DNA from: an uncultured Flavobacteriaceae bacterium
GTDB lineage: Bacteria > Bacteroidota > Bacteroidia > Flavobacteriales > Flavobacteriaceae
NCBI GenBank assembly: GCA_937944485.1
Contig: CALDYU010000005.1
Location: 372,001-436,000 of the forward strand
Length of the DNA: 64,000 bases
Reading direction: 5' to 3'
The notes beneath the pieces are model-generated. The model made no database searches. It was given only the letters and a program-made list of their open reading frames with translations, and was not told where the DNA came from. Below are positions 11,468 to 60,679 of the stretch, piece after piece (within the stretch, counting starts at the first letter, position 1; each line of letters starts with the position of its first letter). The translations under genes were made by a program, and so were the position numbers.

Positions 11468-11530
11468 GCAACAACTATTCCTACATTGACAACACTTATT
11501 TATAAGTCGCACTTTTAAATAGTTAATTTG
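11468..11530 (+). promoter_or_regulatory. Direct-repeat activator-type promoter (site 5, degenerate)
   Basis: GCAACAA (11468-11474) and ACAACAC (11489-11495) are two copies, 21 bases apart, of the heptamer ACAACAA found at four other promoters in this window. Exactly 27 bases later comes TTAATTTG (11523-11530), one base off the -7 consensus. Spacing is identical to the other four sites; the heptamers each carry one mismatch. It points toward rnr, whose ATG is about 490 bases on, and its distal repeat overlaps the presumed -33 region of rpiB. Confidence 0.55.
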
Positions 11531-12018
11531 TTGTTCACAAGCATTCCTACATTTGTTTATAACCTAATTATAAAAATTAATTTTAAGTTTTTGTTAATTC
11601 CTTAAAAAGAGCCTTTACAAAACAAATTTAAGAATGCCCAATTTACTTCTCAGAACATAAGAGAAAGATATCAATAGTTTGGATTGAGAAGTTAACACTA
11701 CCTTTGTAAATACTTATTATAAATTTAATGTTGATATCACTTATAAAGATAAGTTGATAAAAATGGTAAACAACTGATTTCTAAAAAGATTCTGGTTGTA
11801 TAAAATGTCAATAAACTTTAAAATTGGTTCAAAGCAATTATTCTTTGAATTATTTATCTCCCTTATTAACAGTATATAATAACCATCATTTTTTATTTTA
11901 AATTTTAAAAAGAAAATATATAAATTGATATATATGTTAATAACCCTTCAAAACTGAATAAACTAAAATATAAAGTGGAAGAATAGATAAAATTCCACCC
12001 AATTAATAATAAAATTTA
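11531..12018 (+). other. Long AT-rich non-coding leader upstream of rnr
   Basis: No open frame longer than about ten codons was found on the plus strand. It contains a second promoter (11678-11706), a 7-base stem (TTCAAAG at 11828-11834 with CTTTGAA at 11843-11849, 8-base loop) and a 6-base inverted repeat (GTGGAA 11975-11980, TTCCAC 11993-11998). No known riboswitch fold is recognised. Confidence 0.5.
11678..11706 (+). promoter_or_regulatory. Consensus promoter upstream of rnr
   Basis: TTTG (11678-11681), 17 bases, then TACCTTTG (11699-11706): matches both the -33 and -7 boxes of Bacteroidota vegetative promoters. It implies a leader of about 305 bases before rnr. Confidence 0.65.
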
Positions 12019-14208
12019 ATGTCGAAAAAAAAGAAAAAGGCAAGAAATCATAGAAAAAACGAAATAACAAAAGGAATTTTTACAGTTCTTGAAAAAGAAC
12101 CAAAAAAAAATTTTAATTATAAACAAATAGCTGCAAAAATAGGTGTAATCGACGCTCATGATAGAAATACTTTAATAAAACGATTAGTTCAATTAAAAGA
12201 AAAAAAACGCATCATTGAAGAAAGTAGAGGTAGTTATAGAGCGATACTATCTACAAAAACACACCATACTGGTATTGTAGATATTACTGGCAGGGGTAAT
12301 GCCTACATTATTGTAGAAGGCTTAGAAGATGATGTATTTGTGCCTTTCAATAAGTTGAAAAAGGCATTTCATAAAGATACTGTTGAGGTATATATTTTTC
12401 CGAGAAGAAAAGGAAAAAAATTAGAAGGTGAAATTACTAAAGTACTTGAGCGTAACAAAACTAGTTTTGTTGGAATTGTTGATATGCAAGAGACATTTGC
12501 ATTTATACGACCTACAGATTTTAGAATGTACACAGATATTTTTGTTGCTCAAGACAAAATAAAAAAAGCAAAGAATGGCGATAAAGTTATTGTAGAAATA
12601 ACAGAATGGCCTGATAATGTAGATTCACCCTTTGGTAGAGTTATTGAAGTATTAGGAAAGCCAGGGGAACATGATACAGAGATACATTCTATTTTGGCAG
12701 AATATGGGCTACCTTATTCTTTTCCTTTAGAAGTAGAACGTTTTGCTAATCAGTTAGATACTTCTATTAAACCTAAAGAAATTGCTAAACGTAGAGACAT
12801 GAGAGAGACGCTTACGTTTACAATTGATCCAAAAGATGCTAAAGATTTTGACGATGCACTTTCTTTTGAAGTGTTAGAAAATGGAAATTATGAAATAGGG
12901 ATTCATATTGCGGACGTCTCTCATTATTTACAAGAAGGTACAGTCTTAGACGATGAAGCTTATAAGAGAGCAACATCTGTTTATTTAGTAGATAGAGTTG
13001 TACCGATGTTACCAGAAGTATTATCAAATAATGCATGTTCATTAAGACCGAATGAAGAAAAATATACATTTTCTGCAATCTTTGAATTAGATGATAAAGC
13101 GATCATTAAAAATGAATGGTTTGGAAGAACTGTAATAGATTCTAATGAGCGATTTGCTTATGAAGAAGCACAATATATAATTGAAAATAAAAACGGAAAA
13201 ATTCCAGAAGAGACATCCATTAGGGGGATGGCTTATTCAGTTTCAAATGAAATCGTAGATGCAACATTAACATTAGATAGGTTAGCGAAAATTATGCGTG
13301 CTGCGCGTATGCAAGAAGGAGCTCTTTCTTTTGATAAAGTAGAAGTACGATTTAATTTGAATAAAAAAAATGAACCAACAGGTGTTTATTTTAAAGAATC
13401 GAAAGATGCAAATAAACTCATTGAAGAATTTATGTTACTTGCAAATAGAAAAGTAGCACGCTTCATTGGTAAACAGAAACCGATAAAACCATTTATCTAT
13501 CGTATTCATGACAACCCGAATGAAGATAAATTAATTGCGCTTAACGGAATAGTTTCACGTTTTGGTCATAAGCTAGACTTTAAAGACAAAAAATCTATTA
13601 GCGCTTCTTTAAATAAGCTTCTCGCTGATGTTAAAGGTAAAAAAGAACAGAATTTGGTTGATACGCTTGCTATACGAAGTATGAGTAAAGCAATTTATAC
13701 AACGAACAATATTGGTCATTATGGTTTAGCTTTTGATTATTACTCTCATTTTACATCACCTATTAGGCGTTATCCAGATGTTATGGTACATCGATTACTA
13801 CAACATTATTTAGATGGTGGAGTTTCTCCGAAAGCTGAAATTTATGAGGAAAGGTGTAAACATTCTTCAGATATGGAATATTTAGCTTCAAGCGCGGAGC
13901 GAGATTCTATTAAATATATGCAGATTAAATTTATGCAAGATCACCAAGATCAAGAATTCATAGGTGTGATTTCAGGGGTTACTGAATGGGGCATTTATGT
14001 AGAAATAATTGAAAATAAATGTGAAGGCATGGTGCGTATAAGTGATATCAAAGGGGATTATTATATATTTGATGAAAGGGAATATATGATTTATGGTGAG
14101 CGCACTAAAAAATCATATCAATTAGGCGATGAAGTTATAGTAATGGTTAAGAATACTGATTTAATAAAGCGCCATTTAGACTTTACCTTGATAGGAAAAC
14201 ATGAGTAG
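12019..14208 (+). CDS. rnr: Ribonuclease R (3'-5' exoribonuclease)
   Basis: A processive 3'-5' exoribonuclease that degrades structured RNA, 729 residues. A Lys-rich N-terminus leads to a winged-helix domain (about 10-75) and cold-shock OB domains (80-220). The RNB catalytic domain (about 255-580) carries the acidic cluster D-P-K-D-A-K-D-F-D-D-A near residues 272-282 and the late motif H-F-T-S-P-I-R-R-Y-P-D. A C-terminal S1 domain (about 645-725) begins I-G-V-I-S-G-V-T-E-W-G. All four magnesium-binding aspartates appear intact. The first 40 codons are very AT-rich and Lys-heavy. Its long leader holds two candidate promoters. Confidence 0.96.
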   Translation: MSKKKKKARNHRKNEITKGIFTVLEKEPKKNFNYKQIAAKIGVIDAHDRNTLIKRLVQLKEKKRIIEESRGSYRAILSTKTHHTGIVDITGRGNAYIIVEGLEDDVFVPFNKLKKAFHKDTVEVYIFPRRKGKKLEGEITKVLERNKTSFVGIVDMQETFAFIRPTDFRMYTDIFVAQDKIKKAKNGDKVIVEITEWPDNVDSPFGRVIEVLGKPGEHDTEIHSILAEYGLPYSFPLEVERFANQLDTSIKPKEIAKRRDMRETLTFTIDPKDAKDFDDALSFEVLENGNYEIGIHIADVSHYLQEGTVLDDEAYKRATSVYLVDRVVPMLPEVLSNNACSLRPNEEKYTFSAIFELDDKAIIKNEWFGRTVIDSNERFAYEEAQYIIENKNGKIPEETSIRGMAYSVSNEIVDATLTLDRLAKIMRAARMQEGALSFDKVEVRFNLNKKNEPTGVYFKESKDANKLIEEFMLLANRKVARFIGKQKPIKPFIYRIHDNPNEDKLIALNGIVSRFGHKLDFKDKKSISASLNKLLADVKGKKEQNLVDTLAIRSMSKAIYTTNNIGHYGLAFDYYSHFTSPIRRYPDVMVHRLLQHYLDGGVSPKAEIYEERCKHSSDMEYLASSAERDSIKYMQIKFMQDHQDQEFIGVISGVTEWGIYVEIIENKCEGMVRISDIKGDYYIFDEREYMIYGERTKKSYQLGDEVIVMVKNTDLIKRHLDFTLIGKHE

Positions 14209-14255
14209 TCTCATTTTGGTCTCTGAATCATAGAATGAGAATTGTCTAAAGACAA
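14209..14255 (+). terminator. Paired hairpins after rnr (weak terminator or processing site)
   Basis: TCTCATT (14209-14215) pairs with AATGAGA (14234-14240), then TTGTCT/AGACAA forms a tight hairpin at 14242-14255. There is no T-tract, so factor-independent termination is doubtful. Confidence 0.3.
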
Positions 14256-14273
14256 ATAACCTAAAACAATATC

Positions 14274-15850: not shown

Positions 15851-15852
15851 AG

Positions 15853-16411: not shown

Positions 16412-17356
16412 TTAATAAGTACATCTACAATTACTTAGGCCTTGGAAAAGATCTACGCCTAGAGTAACCACGTGCGTACCTGTACTATACCCTAAAATTT
16501 CATTTAAAATTACCTGATACGAATAACCGAAATAGAAATTGCTCTTTTTAAGACCTACAATTGGAGCAATATATAATGGATCCCCAATTTGATCATTTAA
16601 GAAACGATAGGTTAGACCAGCATAATAATAATCTTCAAAATCGTACCATCTAAATTTGGCGTTAACATCAGTAACTGATCTTCCGTCACTTTCGAAAAGC
16701 TGAAAAAATAATGAAGGTTCTATTTCGAAATCACTATTCTTATTTTTTTTATACCGATAACCGGTATACAAGTAATAATTACGAAGCGTATTCGGTTCAA
16801 AAACAGGGTTAAACTTGGTTAAATCTTTACCAATAAGATTGGATGCATTTGCACTTATATAAAATTTGTTCCAGCGGTATAGCACTCCAACATCAAAATT
16901 GTGATTTGTAGTTGCCCTATCATCAGTAACACTTGGATCTAATGCATCAAAATTTTCGATATCTATTCGAAATTGATTGAAGTTATAAGAGATACCGAAT
17001 GATAAGAACTGGTCATCATAGCGATCAATAGTAAGGTGATGCGCGAAAGACACTCTTGCTCCACGTTGTTTAGTTTCTCCATTACTATCATTATATAGCA
17101 TCATGCCCAAACCAGATTGTTCTCCAAGGCGCATATCCGCGGCTAATGATTGGGTATCAGGTGCATCTTCGATACCCACCCATTGCGTGAGTCCATTAAT
17201 TCTTATTTTAACATGATCACCAATTCCTGCATATGTAGGCGACATAACAAATGGATTGTCTGCAAGATACTGTGAGAGCTGCGGAATTGTAAGTTCCTGA
17301 CCATACGCTAAGAACGTTGTGAATGATATAAGGAGAGTTACTATTTTGTTTCGCAT
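16412..17356 (-). CDS. sprF: PorP/SprF-family T9SS outer-membrane protein (SprF-like)
   Basis: 314 residues with a signal peptide (A-Y-G-Q at about 20) and alternating beta strands of an outer-membrane barrel; P-Q-L-S-Q-Y-L-x-x-N-P-F-V-M-S-P-T-Y-A-G is the PorP/SprF family opening. In Flavobacterium johnsoniae, SprF is needed for secretion and attachment of SprB, and PorP/SprF proteins partner type B sorting-domain cargo. Here the gene starts 19 bases after the giant sprB-like gene, which matches the sprB-sprF pairing. The symbol is by position and family; orthology is inferred. Confidence 0.88.
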   Translation of the reverse strand: MRNKIVTLLISFTTFLAYGQELTIPQLSQYLADNPFVMSPTYAGIGDHVKIRINGLTQWVGIEDAPDTQSLAADMRLGEQSGLGMMLYNDSNGETKQRGARVSFAHHLTIDRYDDQFLSFGISYNFNQFRIDIENFDALDPSVTDDRATTNHNFDVGVLYRWNKFYISANASNLIGKDLTKFNPVFEPNTLRNYYLYTGYRYKKNKNSDFEIEPSLFFQLFESDGRSVTDVNAKFRWYDFEDYYYAGLTYRFLNDQIGDPLYIAPIVGLKKSNFYFGYSYQVILNEILGYSTGTHVVTLGVDLFQGLSNCRCTY

Positions 17357-17375: not shown

Positions 17376-20300
17376 TTATCTATACAGCGTGAAATTTCCT
17401 ACAAATTCACGATCATCATTTTCCCCTCTAAGTTTAATAACATACCAGTAATCTCCAGTAGGTAATTCAGTCTCATTATAAAGGCCATTCCAGCCGGGGG
17501 TATTTAGACTCATTCGATAAACCTCTCTACCATAACGATCAAATATCACAGTTAGTATCTCAGGGAATCCTTCTTGATTTCTAGGCATCCACACGTCATT
17601 TTGACCATCTCCATCAGGGGTAAAGAAATTGGGTATTTCTATATCAATAAATTCTATAAAAATATTCTCCGTAGCTTCACAACCATTGGCATCTATCACC
17701 CTAACGGTATAAGTATCAGTTCTATTTACTATGTAAGTATTATCTGATCCATTGTTGTCTTCTCCGAAATAGAAGGTATATCCTTCTTTTCCTCCATTTG
17801 CAGTAGCGGATATTTGGTTGATACCACCTTGTTCTAGGCTTAGTGTTAATGGTTCGAAATTTTGAACTTCGAAATCAACCGTTTGAATACAACCGTTTGA
17901 ATGTGCAATAGCAATATAGTGCGAACCTGGAGCCGAATTACGGAAATCAGGATTCAGTTGCATATCTGCAGGGTCGGTTGAATCTAGTGCATAAAGAACA
18001 TCACCAATTACGGAGGCGTCTTCAAGCCTAATATTAATATAATTGCTTGGAGTGTCCCCTGAACATTCATAGACGACTTCGATCGAAGCGCTTAGATTAG
18101 CCCCTCCTTCTACTAGTATTCCCGTATCACTTTCGCAGTTATTTGCATCTCGAACGAAAATAATATAGTTGTCGGCAGATAAATCTGTAAAAGATATACG
18201 ATCTTGAACAAAGTCAGTTTCAGTTGCTAAACGGGTGCTATATGGGGCTGTACCTCCTGTAATATTTAAATCAATTGTACCATCGGCATCTCCAACACAA
18301 ATCTCTGGAGTAGAAGTTGCAGAAACAGAAAGGGCTTCAGGTTGGGTAATAGTATATTGCAATTCAATAAAACATCCGTTTTGATCTTGAGCAATGACTG
18401 TATAATTGCCAGGCGCAAGTTCATCAAAAACATTTTCAGAGGTAAACTGATTTAAATTAGGCGAAATAGCGTATTGATATCCGCCAGCGCCTCCAGTTAA
18501 TTGAATGGTAATACTACCATTCTCATCTCCAAAACAAAGTACATTTTCAACACTATCGGTATGGGTTAAGGCGTCGGGCTCTGTAATAACAACCTGTTGA
18601 GCTGCTACGGTACAGTCTTCACTAAAAACGTTTACAAAATAAGTGCCAGCAGTAAGACCATTAAATTCACCTAAGCTTTGTGGACCAGCTATTCTAGATG
18701 TAGCGCTTAGAGTAACATCTGTATAAAGCTCATACATGTAATTACCTAAACCTCCTTGTGCACTAGCATAAATAGCAGCAGTATTATCACCGTTACAATT
18801 AATAAATGCGGCAGTGGTATCTAGGGTTAATGTTAAAGGCTCAATAACATCTTCGATTATTTCATTACTTTGAACGGCAATACAACCATTTATAGCATCT
18901 CTTACATAGTAACGATATGTTCCTGCACCTAATGGGCCATTAATATTAGCGCCATCAGGTATTACGGCAGTACTACCAGTCATTGCGATCCATGTAATAT
19001 TATCTTCACTATATTCATAGGTGCCACTTCCACCCGTTGCCGAAAGTTCAAGCTCTACCCCCATGGTCGTATCACAAGTTAAGGCTCTGGTACGAATCAA
19101 TAAGGCTTCAACCTCAGCAGGATTTACAATTTGTATAATAGGTGTGTTTTCAGAACAACCAACGTCATCATTTACAGTAACACTATAGTAACCAGCATTT
19201 AAACCTGTAAAAATATTAGAGGTTTGATTCGCAGAGGTTGTTAGTATTGTGCTGCCAGTGCTGTCATATCGGTTAATTTGATACAGGTAATTGGGCGTTA
19301 CATTTCTAGTATTAACAGAAGCGGTAAGGGTTCCTGTTGCACCATTAAAACAAACCAAAGGTGTTGCAACAATTGTTGGCACAAGAGCGTCAGGCGTAAG
19401 TAAGGTAATCGTATCAGATATTGGGCAATTTGACGCATCAGTTATAGTTACATCATAATCACCTCCTGAAAGGCCAGTAAAAATATGCGCTTGCACATTC
19501 GTTTGAGTATACGATTGCGTCGTTGTGGTATTCGTTAGAATTATATCATACGGCGCAGTACCTCCTTCAGGGTCTATCAATATACTACCTTTATCGTCAG
19601 AGCAACCAGGACCGGCTTGTTCGCTGATGGTTGCAGAAACGGGCGCTGAGGGTGCTAAAATAGATATTATGTTAGAATCGTCTTCACAAAGTGGTACGTC
19701 AGTTTCGGTAATTCGAACATAATAAAGACCTCCAGGCAAGTTAGAGAATATCAAAGGTGAACTAGTATTTCCTGTACCTGTTAGACCTGCAATTGGCATG
19801 TCATTGTTGTCGAAAACTTGATAGTTATAGTTGCCTGTATAATTAGTTATAGCAACACTAAAACTTCCATCATCTACGCCATTATTTAGGCATTCTTCAT
19901 CTGTAAGTTTCGTGGCAACTACTTCTATAATATCTGGATCTATAACTTCGTGTGTTGTTTGAACGACACACCCAGTATCAATATTTGTGATGGTTATTGC
20001 ATAATTTCCTATGAGGAGATTAGTAAAGATACCTGTGTTATTGGTTTGATTATAGGTAACGTTTGTACCAGTAGTAGTATATTCTAATGTTGGTGTTCCA
20101 GTTACAGGGCTAACTGTAATACCAACTTGAATTTCTTCAAGAATTGTTGGGCTACAAGTGATGTCTTGAGTAACGGTTACTGTTGGGTCACCAATAGATA
20201 CAAAGGGTAAAATAACAGCTGTTTGGGTTCCAAGACAACCGTTGTCGTCATAAACATTGATAATGTAGGTTCCGCCAGCAAAGTCAGTTTCTGTGTATAC

Positions 20301-23300
20301 CGTATTGTTACCATCTTGCACCACTACATCATCAGCAGTTGTTAAGGTTCCCTGATCGTTTATAAACACGAATCTTACATAGGCGCCTGAACCACCAGTT
20401 ATAGCTGGTTGGTCAACTTCTATGGTTGCGTAATCTGAATTATTGCCTACACTACAACCAAATTCAATGATGTTAACGTTAACATTCGCAATAGGCTCTG
20501 GCTGTTCAATGGCTTGCGTAATATTTGTTGTACAATTGTTTGCACCAGTAGCTCTTATGGTATATGTAATACCAGGAGAAACTGTACCCACAAGATTGTT
20601 AAATATTGCTGTATTTGAAGTGCTTGAAGCGGGCAAAATAGGAGAAGCAATAGAACTTCCATTACCAGAGATAATTTCAAATGTGTATGGCCCCACCCCA
20701 TTGTCTTGAGCACTAATAGTAATAGTGCCGTCATTAGCTCCGCTACAAGTTACATTGGTAAATGAATCTATATTTATAATGGGGAGAATTCTATCCTGTA
20801 AGTTCTGAGTAATGTTTACTGGGCATGCATGGCCTAAAGCTTGATCGGTAATCGTAAATATATAATCACCAACCTGTGTTAGGTTTGTAAAGATACCTGT
20901 TGTGTTTGTTGCTGTTGTTAGTCCATCAGGGAAAGTAACTAAGTAATCAAAGTTGCCAGAACCACCCGTCTGAGTAATAGTGATTTGCCCACCAGAATCA
21001 ACAGTACAATCTATCGTTTTTACCACAGTGGCTAAAGGCACAATGGGTTCGTAAAGAATTTCAGGTAAGGTTGTAAATGTACAAGACCATTGATCGTTAA
21101 TTTCTACGGTGTAGCTTCCGGCATCTAGTCCTGAAAATATAGTAGTATTTTGAGGAGCACCAATAGCTGTACCGTTTTTAATAAGCTGATAGGTATAGTT
21201 GCTGCCTTGACCACCAGCTACGCCAATTACTTCTAGCTCACCGGTAAAATTGGTACAATTAGGCTGGTTGAGCTGTAATGTTGCTGCAATAGGAGTTGGG
21301 TCGGCTAAAACGATACCATTATCTATTTCTTGCTGACACCCTTCTTGATCAATGACCCATGCTTGATACGTCCCAGGAGGAAGCATATCAAATCTTAGGC
21401 TATTTGCATAATCACCTATTGATGTTGGAGCTGTTGTACCAACATAATATTGGTAATCACCCCATCCACCAATAACATCAATAATTTCAATTACCCCATC
21501 GTTACCGGCACAAGTAATATCGGTTATTACCGTATTTGCTGTTATAGCAGCTGACGGCCCTGCAACAATAAAGAAAGCGTTGTTTACACATGAAGGATCT
21601 GAATCTTGACTGACTTCGACTCTATATTCTCCGGCGGCAATATTAAAAGCAGCACTTGGGCCAGGGTTTATTGAAACTCCATTAGCACCAAGAACGATAA
21701 CATCGTCGGCCAGTGTAACGGTCCCTTGAGACTCATAAATTTGCCAAGAGAAACCGCCAGCATATGGATTAATAACATCATTGATAGTAAAGCTCACCGA
21801 ACCATCATCGCCGAAACAGATAACATCTGTAACCGTTGAGCTAATCTCAAAAGTATTTGGATCTTCAATTTCAAAAGTTGTTTGTATAACACAACCAGTA
21901 AGGTGATTCGTAACTGTTACTAAATAGTTTCCAATTCCTAATCCTGTAAATAAATTTGAAGCCTGATTGGGGGCGTTATATACATTATCAGTTCCTGCTA
22001 CAGCATAAGATAGATCGGTCGCTCCTGCAGTAGGGTTAATGGTTAAACCTATAGCAATTGCAGCATCGTTACCTGGAGTACAGGTTAGATCTTGTGTAAC
22101 CGTTACTGTTGGATCAGTGATTTCAACATAAGGTAATATTGTACTAGTAGTAGTGCCAACGCAGCCCTTGTCATCATAGGCATTGATGATATAACTGCCA
22201 CCAAGAGTATTCGTTTCTATATAAAGGGTATTCGTTCCGTTTTGTACAATCACATCATCTGCAGTTGTTGCGGTTCCTTGATCATTAATAAATTCATAGC
22301 GCACATAAGTGCCTGAGCCTCCAATAGTGTTGGCGACACTTATGGTAGCGGAATTTTGATTATTTCCGGTCGTACATCCAAATTCAAGAACAGGATCAAG
22401 AGTTACTGCAATTGCCGCGGGTTCGCCAATAACAACATTTCTATTAAGCACACATCCATTTGTGGCAGTACCTGTTACGGTATAGCTACCCACTGGAACA
22501 TCTTCAAAGGTTTTAGTTGCTGAATTATAAGTTCCTAAAACAGGTGCAATTGTGTAGGTATATGGATTAATTCCGTTTGATGTTTCATTTATAGTAATTG
22601 TTCCATCTGAACCGCCATTACAAGTTACATCATTAGGCGTTGCTGTAAATATAGGATTTACGATAGGTGGAACCGCAATAGGGAAACTTCTATTACATTC
22701 TGGCGCACTCGTATTGTTGTCGTAAACAGTAATTGTGTAATTTTCTGTTGTTGATGTATTGAATACAAAAGGATTGCTGGGCAAGCCTGTTCGTGTTACC
22801 ACAATGCCACTTCCATCGGTAATTTGATAGTCGTAATCACCAGAGCCATTTGTTACATTAATTGTGATTTCCGCATCAGGAGAAACGGTACAATCAAGGA
22901 GTTTGGTTAATGCTACATTGGCCTCTAATATGGGATGAATTGTCACGGTATCAGTATCGGTACAGCCATTACTGTCAATTATTGAAATGTTGTAGTTGCC
23001 AACGGCCATATTATTAAACACACCGCCATTATTTAAATATGTTGTTCCACTATCTATAGAATAAAGTATTTGTGCTGCTGAACTAGTTGCGCTAATGGTT
23101 AAGGTGCTTGGAGAATTACAGTTGTCAACTACCATAGTGTCTATAGTTGGGTTTGGAGTTAAACTAAAGTTCACAGGTCCAAAATCTGCGAAACAACCAT
23201 ATTGATCAGTTACTCTGACGTTATAATTTCCTGCTGGTGAGTTAGCTGGAATTGCAATCGGATTGTCGGAAGTACCCGTTATAGTAACGAATGGAGCTGG

Positions 23301-26300
23301 CCCTGTTACCGTAAACGTAAAGATTCCACCTCCACCAGTAATATTCTCAACAGCTAATCTTCCAGGATTATCGCATGAAATATCATTGAGCTTATTCAAG
23401 CTTGCCGTTATGGGATTCAACTCTTCTATTAGTAAGTTTTCACTAGCGGAAACGCAAGCGTCTATGCCTCCCGAATCTACTTCTGTGACTACAATATAGT
23501 ATTCGCCTGGCGTAAGACCATTGATTGTAATGGAGGATGCAGCGGCAATTGGCGCTGGGTGACCAGCATTGGTTTGAATGAGGACACCTGTATTGACATT
23601 ATAGAATTCCCAACGCATACTTGGGTGAGAAGTTGCATCTGTATCTGTAATGGTATATGTTATTTCAGCATCATTAGCCCCAGAACAAGAAGGCTCGTAA
23701 CTTGATGTAATTTCAAGAGGGTTTGTCGTAATATCGTTTACATTTACGTTACTTTGACGTACACAGCCCGTTGAATCTCGAACATAAAAAACATAAGTTC
23801 TTCCAGGGATAAGACCTGTCCATATATGAGCCCCAGGAACTGCAGCTGTCCAAGTGGCAGTAGCAATATTAAAGGTTGAAGGATCATCGGTATACGTATA
23901 TTCGTAATTGGGAACACCTGCAGTACCTTGTACAGTTACTTGAAGTTCATTGCACCCAACAACAACAGTAGATATACTTATATCGAGGTCATCTAATGGA
24001 AATGGTATAATATATCTAGGTAAATCTGTTCTACATATTTCTACACCCCCTATTACGGTTCTCATAGATGGAAAAACACTAGTTCCTGAAATGTACCCCA
24101 TTAGTCTGTCTGTTGTACCAGGCACAGTATCATCTCCGGTCCAAGTTGCCCCTCCATCTGCGCTAAATTCAATAGTCGTTGTTGCTGGATATGAGGTTGG
24201 ATAGCCCGTAAATTGGAATCCAAAATCTAACGGATCAACACTTCCACAAGCAGCAGGTAGAATAGGCGCAATAGTAGCAGTCAATTCATCAGGGTTATTT
24301 ATCGTTATTGGGGTTTGAGTAACAGTACAAGAATTGGCATCCGTAACATTGATGGTATAGTTGCCCGGATTTAAATTAAAATAGTTGTGTGTAGTTGCAA
24401 TTACACCAGTATTCGTTTCGTTAGAGACTCCTCCATTATCTAAATCAATAATTTGTAAGATATACGGACTCTCTCCAGAAGTTATATTAATTTCAATAGA
24501 GCCAACACCATTGTGGCATTGGGGATCTGTTGGATTAGCGGTATAAGTTATCGGAGTAGCAGGGTTAACCGTAACGGTTTGCATAAATTCACAGTGAGGG
24601 TCGACAGCATTATTGTCCCATACATAAACATCATAATCACCATCGTTTCCTGTAGTCACATTAAAAGTATTGGAGGCGCCAAAATCTGCAGCAGAAACAG
24701 TCGTTCCATTAGCAATGAAAGCATATGCAAAATTACCATCACCGCCCGAAGCCGTTACCGTAATAGTACCTGCGTTACAAGTGCTTATATCTACTACATC
24801 AACTGTAGCAGTTAGGTGCGGATCTAGTACAACAGTTTGTTGTGTGGCTTGACACCCGAACGCGTCACGTACATCAATATCATAGCTTCCATTAGCTAAA
24901 TTATTGAAAGTGTAAGACGTTGCTGTCGCAGGTGTTGGTGTAATCCAAGCTCCAGAATTAATACTGAATTGAAAGCCTCCATTACCAGGCAAAGAGGTTA
25001 CATCAACAATTATTGATCCGTCATTAGCGCCTGAATAACAGGCTGTGGGCGTAACTGTAAATATCGAATTTAATGGTGCTACAATAGTGATTACCGCATC
25101 TATAGCATCGGTACAATTATTAGTATCTCTAGCAACAACTAGATAATCTCCGGCAGGAAGATTACTAAATGTTGTGGCGGTTTGAAATGGAGTAATAACT
25201 GTGCCAATAGCATTTTCTAATTGGTATTCATAAGTTGGCGTACCACCATTAGCGCTAGCTGTAATTGTTGCACCAGTATTATTACAAGTAAATGCTTCTG
25301 TTATGGTAGCCGAGGCAATTAATATAGCTGGTTCCGTTAAGGTTTGATTTAATGTTTGCGTACAACCTGCAATAGGGTTATCTACATCTCGTACCGTTAT
25401 AGTGTATGTCTGGGCGGCTAGACTAGTTATTTGTTCAGTGCTGGTAAAAGGGCCAATAAAAGTTGAACCGTCTAAACTGTATTCGTAGCCTCCTGCACCA
25501 AAATTGTCAGCTGTTATGGTAATTGTTCCTGAATTGTCAGCGTTACAATTTAAGTTTTCATAATTGGTAATCGATGCTTCAAAAGCATGTCCGTCTTCAA
25601 CGACTATGTCAAATGTGTCGGAACCAGCACATTGTTCTGGAGCTTGAAAAGCGAGAATATTATCTAGTACAAGGTCATTACCAGCGGTGGCAACGCCATT
25701 GGTTCGAATAACAATGTCTAAATTAGTTTCTGCACCTGGATTTAAGGTTACGCTGTAGTTTTCCCATACATCAGGATCTGTACTCTTCGGAATATTACCT
25801 GTGGTTAGACTTGCAATTACAGTACCAACACTATTTACTAATTGAATATCTAGATCTGGGTCTGCACCTGTAGAACCAACAAACTTTAAATTAAAAGCAT
25901 CTAAAGAAATTGTAATATCTCTATTAGGAACTACTTCGATATTTCTTTTAGCATACATAATACCATTGACACCTGCTACACCGCCTATATTAACAGCCAA
26001 ATAGCGACCATTAGGATCTCCAGATTGTTCATTCGGTACAAGCCAAGTATAAGGGTTTACAATAGTATTGGCTACAGAATATTCTCCATCTTGAATGTGC
26101 GTGTCCGTTCCGAAACTTGGACAACTACTCGGACTCCCATCTTGAGGTTCAAAACAGAATAAAGGGTCAATTTCAGTAATGCTCGTCGGCGCACCAGTGC
26201 CAAAGCTTTCTAACAATAAAATACTATTTGAAACAGGGGCGGTACTACTATAGTTTACAGTTACTGTATGTGTTCCTACAGGCACTCCGTTAAAAACATT

Positions 26301-29300
26301 AGAATCTGCAGGGGTGTTTAAGGTTCCATTTAAGGAGTATGTATAGTCAAAACCAGAATTATCTGGTGTAATAGTAATATTGCCTTCACCTGTACAATCA
26401 TAGGAAACTGCGTCACTAAAATTAGGAGGCGTAGGCTGAGGCTCAACGGTCACGTTCATATTAAACGTACACATGTTGGCATCGCGTATTACTAAAACAT
26501 GGTTTCCAGCAGGAAGGTTTCCAACCGAGTTTGTACTATAGCTGAGACCATTATTAAAGCTGTATTCATAGGGTAGGGTGCCACCACTTGGGTTAGTAAT
26601 TCGCACTTCTGCACCGAGTGTAGGGTTACATTCAACAAGAGATGTAACAGCAGCAAAAGCTACCAGAGCTGTAGGCTCTGTAAGAACAACATTTTGGGCT
26701 ACTGACTCACAGTTATTAGCGTCACGTACTCTTACCTCGTATGTGCCAGCAGATAAGTTTGGAAAATTAGTTCCAGGAACATAACTAGCACCATTATCAA
26801 TACTATATACATAAGGAGCAGTACCACCAGAATTTACAGTTATGGAAATACTACCATCCGAACCTCCAAAACAACTAACATTTGTTGTCGTAGGAGCAAT
26901 ATCCAAAGGAGCATCTTGAACAACGGTAAGCGCAACAACATCAGTACAATACCCTGGATTGCCATTATTGTCTCGAACATATACATCATAATTACCTGCA
27001 GCATTTACTGAAATCGGATTTGTTATGCTAAAATCTGCATCAACTACAGCGCTGCCACTTGCGACAACAGCATATACATAATTCGTATCTCCTCCTGTTG
27101 TACCTATTGTAATGTCTGTTGAAGTATCGCACGCCGTAATATTTGGAGCGGTAGCGGTTAACTCTAACGGAGCATTAATAGTTACATTTTGAGCAGTACC
27201 TGTACAGCCCAGAGCATCACTAACATTAATAGAATATGTTCCATTTGAGAGACTAGTAAATGTATGGCTTGTGGCTGTAGTTGGTGAAGGACTTACCCAA
27301 GGGCCTCCATTAATACTGAAGGTATAACCACCATTTCCGTTGGTAACATTTACTTGTATTGTCGCATCATTGGCTCCTGAATAGCATGCCGTTGGAATAA
27401 GGTCAAAAGCAATGTTATTGGTAGGACTAATTGTAATAGCGCTATCAATAGGGTCTTCACAAGAGTTATTATCTCGAACACGAACAATATAGTCTCCAGC
27501 TACAAGACCGCTAAAAACAGTATTTGTGCCGTTAGTTGCAAAATCATATGTGCCTATTACAGCACCAGCATTGTCTTCTAATTGATAGGTATAGTTTGGA
27601 GTTCCTCCACTAGCAGCAGCTGTAATAGTGGCGCCGCCGTTAGTACAACTCAATGCGCTTGTTATTGAAGCAGAACCGACCACGGGAGTGGGCTCGGTAA
27701 TATTCACCGATAAATTTCGTGTACAAGTTATTTCATTTGCTTTTCTAATAATAATGGTGTGATTACCAGCTCCATAAATGGCAGCGGTAGTTACTGGAGA
27801 TGTTGTAGAATTTATATAAGTTGTACCTCCATCTACAGAATAATCAAAACCGTTTACAACATCAAAATTTTCGACCTCGAAAGTTATGGTTCCATCTGAT
27901 AATCCGTTGCAACTGGCGTTGGTCGAATTAATACCGTTTGCTTCAAAAACTCTTCCGCCAACAACGGTTACAGGGGTTTCTACAAATAAGGAACAAACTT
28001 CAGGTATTTGAAAAATTTCGATATCATCAAGAGCGAAATCATTACCACCATTTCCAGTGATTTCTGAACGAATTACAAATTCTAATGACGTATTCGCACC
28101 AGGGTTTAAAGAAGCGTTAAATGGCCTCCAATCGTTAACCCCTGTGTTTTTAGGGATGGCACCTGTACGAATAGATTGAACAATAGTACCAGTACCGACT
28201 TCTCGAATCTCAACTGTTAAATCAGGATCTAAGCCACCTGTTCCTTGTCTCAATAAATTCATCACAAACAGGGAAACTTCCAAATCTTGATTCGGAATTA
28301 TATCGTTGATTTGTTTTGAGTATATTATTTGAGTAGGTGTTGGAGTACCTACATTCATTACTAAATATCTACCTTGACCCGCAAGTGTTCCTGAGGTATG
28401 ATCAATGGGGCTCAGCCAACTACCAAATGGCGCCACTATTTGACTAGTTACTGAGTATTCAAAATCATTTATGTTACTATTGGCATCACCAGGAGGATTA
28501 TTAGTTTGATCTTCGTAATTATATCCGTTTGTATTGGGGCTAGGAATGGTTGCACCAGAACCAAAATCTTCACTTAATAAAAGACTTGGAGTTGGTGGTG
28601 TTGCCGATTGATAGTTTGTTCTTACGGTATAGGTGCCTGGAGGCACGTTTACGAATACATTGCTCGTTGGGTCGGGTGCGTTTAGCAAACCATCAAGTTC
28701 ATATGTATAATTGTATGTTGAAATACTGGGTGTTGCAGTTATTGTGCCTGTGCCATCGCAGTTATAATTTACCTCAGGCGTAAGGTCAACTCCTGGAGGA
28801 GGAGGTGTTCCGGCAACTGTAACATCCATTGGAAATTCGCAAGCCGTAGCGTCTCTCACAATTACGGTATAAGTGCCTGGCGCTAGAATAGCTATGGACG
28901 AAGCACCATAGGTACCTCCGCCATCAAAACTGTATTCGTATGGAGCGCTTCCACCAGTAACATTTGTTATTCTAACCTCAGCTCCATTGGGGTCACATGT
29001 TGCATCTCTTGAAACACCAGCAGATGCCGACAAAGGAAACGATTCTGTAATGTCGTGTGTTAAGTCAATAATACAGCCAGAACTATCTTCAACTTGAATA
29101 GGATAAGTACCCGCAGATAAGCCGACAAAAACCGGTGTAGATTGGGTTGTGCCTCCGCCATCAATACTATATGTATATGGGCCAATACCACCTGATGGCA
29201 CAATGGTGATTCCAGCATCTGCACTGCCATTACAACTGACAGGAGCGTCATCAGTAACTGACACAGTCATGGCCCCATTATCGTTTATCGTTACAGGATT

Positions 29301-32300
29301 TGAAAGAGAATGACACCCATTTGCATCGACTACTACAAAAACATAAGTGCCGTTTTCGCCTGGAAAATATTCGTCCACCGAGTCAAAATCAGTATCTCTC
29401 CATCCAAAATTAAATTCATTTTCAACCTGATAAGCACTTCCTGGTATATCGGAAATTGTGCTATAAAAATTGGTGCCGTCTTTACTCCAAATAGCAAATC
29501 CGTAATCGGGATTTGGAAAACCTCCTGAGGCAGACATTGTAATTATTCCTGCCGAGCAACCAATATCTCTAGTTAAGGTCGCGGAGACAATCGGATCAGG
29601 GGTATTAGCTACACTTACATTTTGGGTAAATGTACAGCCGTCATCCGTTGAGGCTTCAATAATATAATTGCCCGCGTTAACATTAAAAGTATGCGTATTG
29701 TTTGTTTGAGCCGTTTCATCATCGATTAGAGTGCCATTTGATTGGCGAAGTACATAGGTATAATTTGGTTCTACATTTAAAATATCAATTTTGATTGTTC
29801 CTTGTGTATTACAACTTGATGGAGTTGTGGCAACATCAACTTGAAAATTACGGTCAAGAATACCAATATCTGGAGTGCTGAAAACACATGCATTTGCAAT
29901 AGGATTTCCACTTCCATCTAGTTGTACTACATCTACTCGATATTGCCCGTTAGTTGTGATAGTAAAATCTGGACCATTATTGGCGCTAAAAGGAACTAAT
30001 ATAGCATTGTTGGTAATGTCTATTAGTTGAAATCCGTAATTGAGCCCTAGGTTTGTGATGTTAATTCTACCTTCTGTGGTGCAAATAATATCTCTTGAAT
30101 TGTATTCAATATTTAAGTTGTTTTGAAATACGTCAAAATAAAAACGATTAAAACAGCCATTTTGATAGGTTACTACTAATCTATATTTGCCGGCGGCATT
30201 TGCCGTATAGGTACTGCCCGTAGCAATTTGATTCCATGTACACCCTGCATTTTTATTTGCGCAATCGTCTGGCGCCAGAGTACAACTGCTCTCATCTAAT
30301 AGTTCCCAAGAAATAGTTTGCGCGTCAGTTATATTTGTTTGCAGAATTTGTGTGTCACCAGCCCCGCATAAAAAGATCTTAGGAAGCACGTCGCCATCAA
30401 TACTACAAGTGGCTATCTCGCCTTCAATGTCATTAGATACGTCGCCATCACTATTTACGGTATTAAAGTAATCGACAATGGGGTTTATAGTATTTGAACC
30501 AAATCGCTCAACTACCAATATTTCTTGAAATCCTTTACATGGATCTGCGATTATTTTGTCAACAATGTATGTTCCCTCTTGCGTTACAAGTTGCGTACTT
30601 GGATCACTATCTGGATCACCGTCGTTTAAAATTGTGTCTGAACCATCTATTACACCGTTATCATTTACATCGCTATACCAAACATAACTATCAAAGCCAT
30701 CACCTGCGTCTAAAATTACATTGTCTCCACATAGCTGAACGGTTCTGGTAAAATCACAGGTGGTCAAATCATCTAATAAGAAGTTAGTTGCACCAGGAGT
30801 AATAAATCCGCAGTCGTCAAAATCAGTTACACTGGGGTCATCTGTAATTTGATTGTTGTTAACAACACCTTCATAGGTTGAATACGCTAAATTTTGAATT
30901 AGATCAGTACAAGCGTCAATGAAATCAAAACAGTTTTCTGCAACGCGAACCCGCATGCGAATTGCTGATACGGGATCTCCTGTTTCAATGAGATTGTCAG
31001 GAATAGTAAAAAGTACTGTTCTAGTAGGAGCGTCATATGTGTAAGTTACTCCTGTTGGTAAGACAAAATTGCTTTCGTCTAAAGTTACATTTATAGGCAG
31101 TACATCTCTAATAGTATAGTTGGTTCCATCGTCGTTGCCAATGTTTTGAAATGAAAGCACATAATCTAAAGTTTGACCTAGGTTAACACCTAAACCGGTA
31201 ATATCATTACCAGCGATATCTTCAACTTTTTTTTCAAGAACGATGTCGGGCTCAATAATTTCAACATTAAAGGAATTGAAAAACGGATAGTATTGATCGC
31301 CATTGGTTTGAAACCTAAAAGTGGCAGCTGTTTCTGCATTTGGTATTACTGAATTAGCAAAATTATTAAGCGTGAATATATCGGTATCATAACCCAAAGT
31401 ATTGGCGCTACTCGGCGTTCTACCAGGCAATAGTGTTGCATTTAAGGTGATATTACTATTAAAAAAGTTGTTTGCGGGGTTAGCACCATTACTCATGGTT
31501 GTAAAACCTGCATTAGAAGCAGCGCGAATTCTCATTTGATCTCCAGAAATTCTAAAGTCTCCTTCTAATGTTGCGGCCCCAATATCTACATTAACTTGAC
31601 CAACGGGTATCGTAGTAAACCCATTATAATTAATGTCTATTTGGTCTGAGCTAGTTACCCTAGCAAAACCATCAAACGTAGTAATTAGTTTCCCTGTTAT
31701 CGTTGGGTTTTCGTAAACAATAACTAAGGTCCACCCCCCAGCAGATCCACCCGGCATATGGCTAGTGCCTGTGTTTAAGTCGTATCCAACACCCTGTGCT
31801 ACAGCAATATTAGCTACCGTATAATCTCCGGCCGGATTCGCTAAGGGAGTAAGTAAGGCGGTAACATCTGCATAGGCAGCGTATGGGGCATTAGCGCTTA
31901 AAGCCGGATTGCTTAAACCATCATATAAAATATCATCAGCTGTAACATCAACATAGGCGCCACCAGGTACTTTTAATTTCACCTGATTAATAGGATGTTG
32001 TCTAGGCGTTCCTACTGGATCGGTTGTATTATCTCTGGGGTAAGTAGCCGACCAATAAAGGCCCGCGTAGCGTATAAGGTTACAGTTGGGGTTTGGAAAA
32101 GAAAAAGTTGTGGTGCTTGAGTTGAACGTAGAGGGGTCCCCATCAACGTCAATATATTGCATGTTTTTGTAGTCATTATAATTGTACCTACCCCCAGTTT
32201 CGTGATTACGATTACTTGCAGGCCAAAAGCTGCCGTTTGTGTTTAAATTATTATACCCATCTATTGGTTCAGTGGTTGCAGAGCCACCATTTCTATTAAC

Positions 32301-32444: not shown

Positions 32445-32554
32445 TTGAGGTAAGTTTTTCAAATAAATGCCACCTTTAGAAAGTGCAATTAGTTGATAAT
32501 TTGGTTTGGCGCTGTTGAAATTGTAAAACACAAAAAGGTCTTAAACATTACTAA

Positions 32555-32617
32555 CAAATATTGGTCTAAATGCCGACAAGCAGAACTTATTGTTGTCTCA
32601 TTCCGAAATATTGTTGT
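32555..32617 (-). promoter_or_regulatory. Direct-repeat activator-type promoter of the sprB-like gene (site 1)
   Basis: On the coding strand: ACAACAA (32611-32617), 14 bases, ACAACAA (32590-32596), 27 bases, then AATATTTG (32555-32562) as -7 box. Inferred transcription start is near 32550, about 105 bases before the ATG. No -33 box is seen in the 27-base spacer. It would give the sprB-sprF pair transcription independent of the upstream two genes. Confidence 0.7.
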
Positions 32618-32940
32618 GAAAGTTAATATAGCTGCTGTTTGACGCGATTCAAGTTGCTACATATTCGCTTGCGAAGCCTTGTTTTCCAAGAAATTTAAAG
32701 AGTTGATCTTTCACGAAAGGTAGCCTTTAGTTAGCTGAAATTTTTGCATTTTAGAGATGCTTAAATAATGTTGAATAAGAAATTATCCAGTCGACAAACA
32801 GATTAGGTTTTGTTTTAGCATAGCGCGATAAATAATAATACTAGGCTAGATCGAATAGGTTTAAAATTGCTGTTTGATATAATACTATGAATAGTGCTTA
32901 TATGAGAGGAACCTATGATTTAAATAATAAGAGAATTTTA
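32618..32940. other. Gap between sprD-like and sprB-like genes, outer part
   Basis: No open frame of useful length, no tRNA and no GC-rich terminator hairpin seen. Read-through from the upstream sprC/sprD-like genes cannot be excluded. Confidence 0.4.
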
Positions 32941-37424: not shown

Positions 37425-37487
37425 CAAATATGTCTTTAAAATGTTGTTTGAAGAATTTATTGTTGTAATAGGAATCATTATTGTTGT
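37425..37487 (-). promoter_or_regulatory. Direct-repeat activator-type promoter of the sprC-like gene (site 2)
   Basis: Coding strand: ACAACAA (37481-37487), 14 bases, ACAACAA (37460-37466), 27 bases, CATATTTG (37425-37432). The inferred start lies about 95 bases before the ATG at 37324. Flanks of both heptamers resemble site 1 beyond the core (TTTCACAACAATA). Confidence 0.7.
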
Positions 37488-37547
37488 GAAACATGCGTAT
37501 TTGTATGGTTGGCTTATTTTATTAAGTGTATTCATAGGCTTTTTTGG

Positions 37548-57481: not shown

Positions 57482-57652
57482 TTAATCAAACGAGAAGCCA
57501 GTAACGACTCTAAAGATGAAAGCATAAAGTACAACTAGGAAGCTAATAAAGCAGAACCATGAGAAGACTTTAAAGTATGATTTAACAAAAGCGGTGCCTA
57601 GATTTTTAAATGCCTCTAGGTAAATTTCTTTGATAAGTAGAACGTGTTTCAT
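57482..57652 (-). CDS. Small membrane protein, DUF6747-like (56 residues)
   Basis: A 56-residue frame from the ATG at 57652 to TAA at 57482-57484. The N-terminal half is amphipathic with Lys/Glu (K-H-V-L-L-I-K-E-I-Y-L-E-A-F), followed by one transmembrane helix (about residues 30-48, F-S-W-F-C-F-I-S-F-L-V-V-L-Y-A-F) and a short tail ending T-G-F-S-F-D. I recall flavobacterial proteins with this same pattern filed as DUF6747; the function is unknown. Support for its reality: own promoter with the shared direct-repeat element upstream, a terminator just downstream, and a composition unlike random frames. Confidence 0.82.
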   Translation of the reverse strand: MKHVLLIKEIYLEAFKNLGTAFVKSYFKVFSWFCFISFLVVLYAFIFRVVTGFSFD

Positions 57653-57698: not shown

Positions 57699-57761
57699 CA
57701 AAATCTTATAGTTAGGTATTACGAAAGATATATTTGTTGTGAATACCTATCCGAGTGTTGT
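57699..57761 (-). promoter_or_regulatory. Direct-repeat activator-type promoter of the DUF6747-like gene (site 4)
   Basis: Coding strand: ACAACAC (57755-57761), 14 bases, ACAACAA (57734-57740), 27 bases, AGATTTTG (57699-57706; TTTG conserved, TA part not). Inferred start about 40 bases before the ATG at 57652. Both heptamers are preceded by TTCAC or TTTCAC like the other sites. Confidence 0.65.
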
Positions 57762-57835
57762 GAAATTAATGTTATGTTAATAAACATTGAACTATCTGAC
57801 AATTTAACCCAAGAAAGACAAGTTAAAATAGTTAC

Positions 57836-57878
57836 AAACAATAATCGCCATGTGATAACATGGCGATTATTGTTTTAT
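57836..57878. terminator. Strong hairpin terminator after the OmpA-like gene
   Basis: A perfect 18-base stem (57836-57853 with 57858-57875) around GATA. The outer pairs are AAACAAT/ATTGTTT, giving T-rich exit on both strands. It ends the leftward OmpA-like transcript. Confidence 0.85.
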
Positions 57879-57901
57879 ATGAATTGGGCGTTATTAGTTG
57901 C

Positions 57902-60367
57902 TTACATATTTACAATAATAAATTCAGAACGTCTATTTAGGAAATGTTGTTGTTCTGTACACGCAACACTACCATCGCAATCGTTCAACAAACGTTCTTC
58001 CCCGTATCCAATGGCACTTTGAATTCGTTCTGGAGCGATACCTTTTGAAATAATATAATCGCGCGTAGCTTTTGCCCTATTTTCAGAAAGGTATTTGTTG
58101 TAGGCTCTTTTACCTCTTGAATCGGTATGTGATTCAATTTTTATTACCATTGTTGGATATTCAGTCATTACTTCAACCAGTTTATCCAACTCTAGTCCTG
58201 CATCTTGACGAATATATGATTTGTCGAAATCGAAATAGATGATTTCGGTTTTTAGCTTTTTGATACCATCTTCAATAGCGATCATTTCTTTAAGCTTGCG
58301 CAATTGAATATCAACGTTTACGGTATCATTTTCAACAGTGGCAATTTCTTTAAGATCTTCAAAATAAGTATCATTATTTACTCTTAGCGTATATTTAGTA
58401 TCTGCTTCAAGGTCTTCAAAAATGAAGCTGCCATCGGCATCTGTCTCCATTTCTTTGAGCTTAATTCCGTTTTCATCAAGAAGTTCAATAAAAGATTGAG
58501 GCATTATGTCACCAGTGATTAATTCGGTAACAACACCGGCAATGGCATTTTTGTACTCAGGAACTTCTTCAACGATTAATCTCTGGAAAGAATAGATATC
58601 GTCATCTCCTTTTCCATCAATACGATTAGAAGCAAAAAATCCTTTTTGAGTTTCCTCATTCACAATATAAGAGAAGTCGTCTCTATTACTATTAATAGGC
58701 TTGCCAAGGTTTTTTACTTCATTAAACCCTTCTTCAAGGGTATAAGAAACTTCATAAATATCTAAACCACCGAGACCAGTATGTCCATCTGACGAAAAAT
58801 ATAGTTTTTTATCATTGATGAAAGGGAACATTTCTTTTCTTTCAGTATTAATTTCTGGTCCTAGATTACGAGGTTCTGAAAAGGTATTATTTGCCAGAAC
58901 ATCTACAACAAAAATGTCTGTTTGCCCTATGCTTCCGGGCATATCTGATACAAAATATAGCTGTTTGCCATCTGGGCTTAAAGCTGGATGACCTGTAGAA
59001 TAACTATCACTATTAAAAGGGACTTCTATCGCCTCAGTCCATTCGTCATTTACCTTAGTTGACATGTATATTTTAAGGTTATTATCTCCGTTTTTATCTC
59101 TTCTTAGCTTTTTGCCGTAATTGTTACGTGTAAAATACATGGTTTCGTTATCAGGAGAAAAGGTAACAGAGGCTTCGTGGTATTTGGTATTTATTTTTTT
59201 TGAAAATTTGATGGCATCTTTTAATTCTTGCGATTCTTCATTTAATTTTGCTACATAAAGATCAAGAAAAGGCTGATTGTTCCATTTATACCTTCTGGTA
59301 TTAAAAAATGAAGAATCTTTTGCAGATGCAAATACAATTTGTGAAGAGTCTAAAAACATAGGAGAGAAATCGGAGTATTCAGTATTTATCTCTAGATTTT
59401 TTAATTCAAAATTTATTCCCCTGTTTAAAATGTTATCAAGAACTATTTCATTTTGAAGTGATTTTTCTTCATTAAGCGTGATATCACCATTTTCAACTTT
59501 CCTTTTGTAAAGTCGCATTAGTTTTTTGGAACGTGCGTATTTACCGGTGCCTTTTAAAGAATGTGCATACTTAAATACGTTATCTGACGACATCTCTTCA
59601 CCATATTTTTCATAAAGTAAATTATACCACTCATATGCTTTTTCCATATTCGTATTGAAGTAATACGAATCAGCAGCTTTTTGTATGATTTCGTAAGAAT
59701 GATTTTTATCACCTTTCTCTAGAGCTTCCTCATATAAAGCGGCCGCCTCTGCGTACCACATTTTATCAAAGTAAATATCAGCTCTTTTGATGAGTTTGGT
59801 TTTGAAACCAGAATCTTTTACACTTGTTTGATCTATGTCGTTTTGAGTTGCAGTAAGAGCTTTCTCTTCATTTTTATTATAAAGAGGTTCCTTAATATTC
59901 GGTGGGGTACTATTTTCTACTTGTAAAATCCAAACATCTTCTTCGTAAGCTCCTTCAAACTGGCTTATGCAAGCATCCACGGCCTCTAAACCAAAAGGAT
60001 AACTTTGAACATAAACATAATTCAATTCATTTTCAGAATTCTTAATAGAACCAGAATTAAATCCTTTCTTTTTAAGTTTTCGAAGCGCTCTTTTCAAATT
60101 TCTACCTTCATTAAATACCCCAGAGATCACGTAAAAACCATCCTCAGTGTCTTTTAAGTTACTTAATGTTCTATATGGTATTCCATTCTTTTTAGCCACT
60201 TCTTCGAAAGGCTCGTTTACAGCCAAATCATTTTCGTTGTTCATATTCTTGTCTGCTTCGGCTATAGTATCTTTTGTGTCTGGCTGATTAATACTAATAA
60301 TAGGATTAATCTGCGCGAGAACGCTAATAGATAAAAGTAAAAAGCAGGCGGGCAATAATTTTTTCAT
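57902..60367 (-). CDS. OmpA-family protein with SPOR-like, TPR, PD40 and Cna-B-like parts
   Basis: 821 residues from the ATG at 60367, which starts a signal peptide (V-L-A-Q); the in-frame start at 60397 adds ten residues. Order: a SPOR-like module (about 75-155: G-F-Y-V-I-S-G-V-F, Y-V-Y-V, W-I-L-Q-V); TPR-like helices (about 200-310); PD40/beta-propeller strands (about 340-600; L-S-P-D-G-K-Q-L-Y-F-V-S-D and similar); a Cna-B/carboxypeptidase-regulatory-like domain (about 610-690); and an OmpA domain (about 700-820) with S-H-T-D-S-R-G and N-x-x-L-S-x-N-R-A. This architecture is typical of flavobacterial partners of PorP/SprF proteins, probably anchoring the T9SS cargo system to peptidoglycan. 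Promoter: site 3. Confidence 0.9.
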   Translation of the reverse strand: MKKLLPACFLLLSISVLAQINPIISINQPDTKDTIAEADKNMNNENDLAVNEPFEEVAKKNGIPYRTLSNLKDTEDGFYVISGVFNEGRNLKRALRKLKKKGFNSGSIKNSENELNYVYVQSYPFGLEAVDACISQFEGAYEEDVWILQVENSTPPNIKEPLYNKNEEKALTATQNDIDQTSVKDSGFKTKLIKRADIYFDKMWYAEAAALYEEALEKGDKNHSYEIIQKAADSYYFNTNMEKAYEWYNLLYEKYGEEMSSDNVFKYAHSLKGTGKYARSKKLMRLYKRKVENGDITLNEEKSLQNEIVLDNILNRGINFELKNLEINTEYSDFSPMFLDSSQIVFASAKDSSFFNTRRYKWNNQPFLDLYVAKLNEESQELKDAIKFSKKINTKYHEASVTFSPDNETMYFTRNNYGKKLRRDKNGDNNLKIYMSTKVNDEWTEAIEVPFNSDSYSTGHPALSPDGKQLYFVSDMPGSIGQTDIFVVDVLANNTFSEPRNLGPEINTERKEMFPFINDKKLYFSSDGHTGLGGLDIYEVSYTLEEGFNEVKNLGKPINSNRDDFSYIVNEETQKGFFASNRIDGKGDDDIYSFQRLIVEEVPEYKNAIAGVVTELITGDIMPQSFIELLDENGIKLKEMETDADGSFIFEDLEADTKYTLRVNNDTYFEDLKEIATVENDTVNVDIQLRKLKEMIAIEDGIKKLKTEIIYFDFDKSYIRQDAGLELDKLVEVMTEYPTMVIKIESHTDSRGKRAYNKYLSENRAKATRDYIISKGIAPERIQSAIGYGEERLLNDCDGSVACTEQQHFLNRRSEFIIVNM

Positions 60368-60616
60368 AATTTGGGATTTAGAGACCCTTTTAAACAAAAT
60401 GGTGGTTAAAGCGGCTTATTCTAAAACAACTATATTAATATTCACTAATTCTTAGCTTCATATATAAAATTTAAATCAATACTTAAAAACCAACTTTTCT
60501 TTAAACAAAAGTGCTTTAGGTTTAAACAACTTCTACCATAACAACACCGAATGTTTATTTAGTTAGGATTGGTACTGACCCTGATTTTAAACTATTATTC
60601 CATAAAGAATAACAAT

Positions 60617-60679
60617 CAAATGTAACTTAGAATGACAACTTGTATTAATTTTTGTTGTGAAACAGGGTCTAGTTGTTGT
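60617..60679 (-). promoter_or_regulatory. Direct-repeat activator-type promoter of the OmpA-like gene (site 3)
   Basis: Coding strand: ACAACAA (60673-60679), 14 bases, ACAACAA (60652-60658), 27 bases, TACATTTG (60617-60624), a perfect -7 box. The leader to the ATG at 60367 would be about 245 bases, in which no reading frame longer than nine codons was found. Confidence 0.72.

Follow-up and report, generated by a model that had tools for sequence, protein, structure and literature searches.

Do the direct repeats that precede gliding and type IX secretion (T9SS) genes in this Flavobacteriaceae genome form the operators of one regulator and, if so, of which? In the window, that is, the whole 64-kb stretch of DNA (64,000 nucleotides) analyzed here, a first-pass annotation had placed five sites, at 32555-32617, 37425-37487, 60617-60679, and 57699-57761 on the minus strand and at 11468-11530 on the plus strand. 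All five are present at these positions, each of them (5/5) with two heptamers in a 21-base period, followed after 27 bases by an 8-base box ending in TTTG, 63 bases in total. The mismatches were described correctly for 11468 (one per heptamer) but not for 57699, which was called exact and whose first heptamer reads ACAACAC, with one mismatch. Moreover, a feature absent from that description is observed, the distal repeat being immediately preceded by TTTC in four of the five sites and by TTCC at 60617. A search of the window with the annotated pattern gives 3, 4, 5, and 6 matches at up to 0, 1, 2, and 3 mismatches, whereas the means expected from 60 dinucleotide shuffles are 0, 0, 0.017, and 0.35.

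Four of the five sites are placed as gene promoters would be, 46 to 249 bases before an ATG. The putative LytTR-type operator and -7 box of a sprC-like gene (37425..37491, minus strand) lie 100 bases before the ATG at 37324. This gene (35081..37324, minus strand) encodes 747 aa with Ig-like and CHU_C type IX secretion signal domains according to Pfam, and the 710-aa PorP/SprF-domain protein behind it (32941..35073, minus strand; Pfam) would hold the sprD position. The putative operator and -7 box of the next large gene (32555..32621, minus strand) are found 110 bases before the ATG at 32444, the likely start of a giant ORF (17376..32531, minus strand; ORF list) that counts 5051 aa from its first GTG and that its size and neighbors suggest to be sprB-like. 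A PorP/SprF-type protein in the sprF position comes next (16412..17356, minus strand; Pfam). Four relatives (L104-L107) likewise have a second site, placed ahead of the large gene that comes next.

The putative operator and -7 box at 60617..60683 (minus strand) stand 249 bases before the ATG at 60367, the likely start of a PD40-CarboxypepD_reg-OmpA protein of the T9SS envelope type (57902..60397, minus strand; Pfam). It had been called OmpA/SPOR-like; the OmpA domain is borne out, PD40 and CarboxypepD_reg domains are added, and no SPOR domain is detected by Pfam. The fourth putative operator with its -7 box (57699..57765, minus strand) lies 46 bases before the ATG of a membrane-type microprotein of 56 aa (57482..57652, minus strand), which, as read directly from the sequence, has a hydrophobic C-terminal half and is followed by a terminator-like hairpin. 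The remaining site (11464..11530, plus strand) is the weakest of the five, its role being uncertain. It has no evident target: no ATG-started ORF of at least 25 aa is found within 330 bases downstream, and the nearest gene start, that of RNase R, is 489 bases away.

In the whole genome (3.41 Mb scanned, 93% complete), the annotated pattern at up to three mismatches gives 44 matches compared with 26 in a reversed control. Loose matches are therefore mostly noise, and the pattern at three mismatches was dropped as a genome-wide search tool and replaced by a refined motif, extended by the flanking TTTC and by the TA that opens the -7 box. At up to three mismatches, this motif gives 16 matches in the genome and 0 in the reversed control. 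None of the 16 lies within any ORF of at least 120 aa, the refined motif thus being intergenic and far more frequent than its control. The refined motif is incomplete, since two of the three type A small RNA genes of this genome (see below) carry sites caught only by the earlier, looser pattern; the third has a weaker box at its site. The 16 sites precede the sprC-like, sprB-like, PD40-OmpA, and PorP/SprF genes, an ECF sigma factor gene, two ORFs that by eye resemble large surface proteins, small ORFs of 56, 35, 125, and twice 32 aa, and up to four small RNA-like units, one of them behind the regulator gene considered below; the site at 11468 completes the set. The surface genes of the proposed regulon are thus recovered, but the target set is wider, with small RNA genes, an ECF sigma factor, microproteins, and perhaps a kinase.

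Among the microproteins, one site of this genome (L282, C3:19927+) is followed by two tandem 32-aa ORFs of similar sequence. Also, a conserved microprotein of the 35-aa type ends in (I/V)QVYxN(D/E)(F/Y)xSG..(R/K)KLFML, and a site lies upstream in 7/7 copies that match this pattern (L012 from 1638 on, in the genome studied, with its site at C5:514627+; L222, L227, L230, L235, L236, and L239). The ECF sigma factor gene (L051:11111-11752, contig C3 of this genome) carries a site. By eye, look-alike sites ending in CTAGTTTTA recur in six or more relatives, and a second layer of regulation may thus be conserved.

An alignment of 181 sites, drawn from the fetched loci at 11 or more of 12 core bases, defines the element as TTTCACAACA and then TTnCACAACA, with starts 21 bases apart, followed by a TAnnTTTG box. 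Assuming that transcription starts 5 bases after the box, these parts occupy -71 to -62, -50 to -41, and -12 to -5, respectively. Conservation of the core columns is partly by construction because of the way the sites were selected, and the bases between the repeats vary freely. The absence of a -33 box, claimed earlier, is only loosely true, a weak AAATTT being present at about -38 to -34 in the aligned sites. The spacing can be counted independently of the rest of the motif: among exact ACAACA pairs within 60 bases of each other, it is 21 in 29/32 pairs upstream of sprC and in 65/69 pairs in the gap behind the regulator gene. Taken together, period and matrix position agree with the layout of a LytTR-type operator, a pair of short direct repeats that share one face of the helix ahead of the promoter. 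In L088-L091, L221-L240, and L241-L270, many sites before type B small RNA genes end in TTTA, and sprC sites mostly read CATATTTG or AATATTTG; perhaps these are two promoter classes.

The element is also conserved across the clade, as the regulon proposal called for. It is found upstream of sprC orthologs in 30/30 inspected genomes, 101 to 235 bases before the matched start, with no other element match in 312 kb of these loci over both strands. A SprC ortholog is present in 34 of the 36 genomes that bear the regulator, the 30 inspected being those other than G030, G057, G077, and G150; in G150, coordinates place a site about 60 bases before the SprC match.

Which protein would bind these repeats? 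The genome's best site is found between the gene of a LytTR response regulator, which it follows, and a kinase gene of the TPR-HisKA_2 type. The regulator (L042:2518-3273) consists of Response_reg (PF00072, 70.8 bits) and LytTR (PF04397, 65.6 bits), no other domain being found, and its FYRAHKS motif, invariant in 9/9 aligned orthologs, agrees with the FhRhH(R/N)S conserved in this DNA-binding domain (PMC4227749). The neighboring kinase has TPR, HisKA_2, and HATPase_c domains. In the genome studied (L042:2518-4822), the genes that come before the regulator encode a SPOR-domain protein and a prenyltransferase of the UbiA type, and ORFs of similar size and order are seen ahead of it in several relatives.

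A regulator ortholog (E < 1e-80, the next best match being 44% identical) is present in 36 of 199 genomes of the family. At least three sites, at two mismatches, are found in 34 of these 36 genomes and in 0 of the 163 others, which have one site at most (17 genomes have one, compared with 18 reversed-control matches there). The two exceptions are G030, with one site and an ortholog 70% identical, and G060, with none and an ortholog 58% identical. Fisher's test gives p = 3e-36 for this co-occurrence, a value that overstates independence because the genomes share ancestry.

Adjacency points the same way. In the best 80 of 277 relatives, named loci from Maribacter, Zobellia, Kriegella, Cellulophaga, Euzebyella, and others that are close relatives and not independent, 99/99 sites in 970 kb sit in the gap behind the regulator gene, and 77/80 loci have such a site. 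Those that do not are L116, which lacks a kinase homolog, L117, whose site appears only at a looser core cut-off, and L157, where the contig ends. Among the same best 80 of 277, 77 loci have a kinase homolog, 43 to 76% identical, on the regulator's strand and no more than 2.2 kb behind it. On co-occurrence and adjacency, the binder of the sites is likely to be this one LytTR response regulator.

It is unlikely that another clade-specific regulator, whether a second member of the LytTR family or some unrelated protein that binds direct repeats, occupies the sites, with the neighboring LytTR gene merely syntenic. The genome does encode 11 LytTR proteins, and clade-specific genes give look-alike profiles, the comparison covering one of the ten LytTR paralogs. 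However, in the best 80 of 277 loci all sites in the 970 kb are grouped behind the gene of this regulator, and the best site near it matches 18/19 positions, whereas the other ten LytTR genes have weak nearby matches of at best 14/19. Moreover, the paralog profiled, one of ten, does not track the motif, since 71 of the 102 genomes that have it are motif-poor. Intergenic position, sprC conservation, regulator co-occurrence, and adjacency together support, computationally, the proposal that sprC, sprB, and further T9SS surface genes belong to a single LytTR-type regulon, and we regard it as quite probable that a LytTR-family two-component system uses these sites as its operators.

In the mechanism that we propose, the phosphorylated regulator would bind both repeats on one helix face and recruit RNA polymerase where a promoter combines a sigma-A type -7 box with a poor -33 element; activation is suggested because the sites adjoin this poor -33 region. 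The sprC and sprB transcripts and those of other T9SS surface proteins would be switched on in this way, along with the ECF sigma factor, the microproteins, and multi-copy small RNAs. Since the direction of control is unreadable from sequence, the same elements could be operators at which the regulator blocks polymerase instead of recruiting it, or they could serve both repression and activation. Nonetheless, repeats upstream of the promoter (-71 to -41) with a weak -33 region correspond to the usual position of an activator, and repression seems quite improbable.

Activation may extend to the kinase itself, a feedback suggested by synteny and by loci without a terminator ahead of the kinase gene. 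On first reading, the kinase promoter was placed at the perfect site that adjoins the LytTR gene, a view given up on finding that several relatives have a short unit with a terminator there and others do not. Just before the kinase ATG of many loci, one clear half-site is seen by eye (uncounted) at the usual distance from a TATGTTTG-like box, which is perhaps the kinase's own promoter.

Many sites precede candidate small RNA (sRNA) genes, which the first-pass annotation lacked. A hairpin resembling a rho-independent terminator is found about 75 to 170 bases behind many sites, and tandem arrays are frequent. Type A units (about 80 nt) have a near-invariant stretch, TTTTTTCATTTTCATATAGTGTTCTCGTAAAAG, and a terminator hairpin; the central 18 bases of the stretch served as the search string and its flanks did not. 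With a loose cut-off, a site lies upstream of 43/43 distinct exact-core copies; by a rule-based call, 38 of the 43 are followed by a terminator. Strong matches to the covariance model R1 of type A (E < 1e-8) are confined to genomes with the regulator, 32 of these 36 having them compared with 0 of the 163 others; G077 and G096 have sites and no strong match. Weak matches are observed in 13 genomes without the regulator (E 2.8e-6 to 1e-3), where they are probably terminator-like chance, and in G060. At the loci found by the model, the site ends 25 to 52 bases before the core in 30/30 inspected copies, the identical cut-off giving, over both strands of 181 kb, 14 further site matches that include several neighboring sites. 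The genome studied has three type A copies.

Type B units measure 117 to 183 nt with the terminator in the 18 sequences examined, which come from 12 chosen loci and include many related copies; L226 falls outside this set because the rule found no terminator there. In them CCCAA occurs 30 times, whereas the shuffles have 7.7 and none of 200 has more than 15; it occurs 17 times in potential hairpin loops compared with 1.0. RNAalifold gives no consensus fold over the 18 sequences, and Rfam has no match above the gathering score in 10 loci (63710 bases).

The tandem arrays and multiple copies of the sRNA units could suggest a dispersed repeat or mobile sRNA cassette, copies of which landed before sprC and sprB by chance. 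However, the sequences behind the sites are unrelated (sprC, the sigma factor, the RNAs), and the free variation between the repeats and the retention of the site by sprC orthologs in 30/30 genomes make such a cassette extremely improbable. Chance matches in an A+T-rich genome, a reading to which the noise of the loose pattern lends itself, are refuted by the shuffles, the refined motif, and the conservation, and their probability is negligible.

In the proposed two-component control, the sRNAs would then adjust the translation of further mRNAs, type A through its near-invariant unpaired stretch, antisense to a AUGAAAAUGAAAA-like start region, and type B through hairpin loops bearing CCCCAAAUC. 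Tests for RNA targets were overall weak or negative. A 20-base antisense of the type A core at up to three mismatches matches, in the genome studied, only its three sRNA genes. GAACAC is present in 19/76 kinase leaders, and CCCAAATC is not enriched in leaders, where starts were called crudely, with 4 occurrences in 43 kb vs 40 in the 345 kb that lie elsewhere between genes. Start-region pairing of type A is slightly above that of shuffled sequences (0/60 shuffles as good), and that of type B is no better than shuffled. A clade-wide, two-tier gliding switch, in which the TPR-HisKA_2/LytTR pair drives the SprB machinery and tandem sRNAs, type A masking start codons and type B acting as a Csr-like sponge, is a tentative idea that we hold to be doubtful. 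If true, sRNAs would control translation in bacteria without Shine-Dalgarno-led initiation, the proteins affected by type A having AUGAAAAUG-like starts and the CCCCAAAUC-bearing loops of type B titrating an RNA-binding protein.

The Zobellia-Maribacter group comprises important degraders of algal polysaccharides, and to our knowledge little is known of what triggers gliding and SprB export beyond a few Flavobacterium promoters. Judging from the genomes compared, in marine gliders related to Zobellia and Maribacter a sensor-regulator pair very probably switches on gliding-adhesin and small RNA genes through a double tag. For this group, the analysis provides a regulator-kinase pair, an exact predicted operator, and a target list, together with a conserved multi-copy family of candidate sRNAs in Bacteroidota and its probable regulator. 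This gives a testable lead on gliding control, every step of which is open to testing in cultured marine strains. In the open-access literature searched (titles, beginnings of abstracts, and some passages, with subscription papers and preprints outside), no description of the element or the RNAs was found.

Finally, four known systems can be compared. In PorXY-SigP of Porphyromonas gingivalis, type IX secretion is likewise linked to two-component control and to a sigma factor of the ECF type. However, PorX has a PglZ-type domain, whereas the regulator reported here has Response_reg and LytTR only. Flavobacterium psychrophilum, of the same bacterial family, likewise provides a case of sprC-sprB control and has an sRNA, Rfp18. 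There, the remFG-sprCDBF promoters carry alternative sigma-factor motifs, the sigma-54 SM4 motif and SM5, and the terms LytTR and direct repeat are absent from the main text (PMC9723704).

VirSR of Clostridium perfringens uses paired repeats in a fixed position and helical phase and controls a small regulon with VR-RNA as a target (PMC2838878). The likeness lies in a small regulon and in paired direct repeats at a fixed place ahead of the promoter, and the sRNA-like genes found here would be the counterpart of VR-RNA. On the other hand, the VirR repeats are separated by 7 to 8 bases (PMC2838878), and here repeat sequence, spacing, kinase, and targets are different and the sRNA arm is multi-copy. 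AgrA of the Staphylococcus aureus agr system is a LytTR regulator with paired direct repeats as its binding sites ahead of promoters, among them the promoter for the regulatory RNA RNAIII, and FFRCHNS of AgrA corresponds to FYRAHKS of the present regulator (PMC4227749). Paired direct repeats upstream of promoters are shared, with sRNA-like genes and a terminator behind the sites as candidate RNA targets. However, the proximal repeat is centered near -60 for AgrA (PMC4227749) and near -45 here, and the kinase is of the TPR-HisKA_2 type instead of a polytopic membrane kinase like AgrC or VirS. Compared with AgrA-RNAIII, the system described here would thus join many candidate sRNA genes to adhesin targets, in another phylum.
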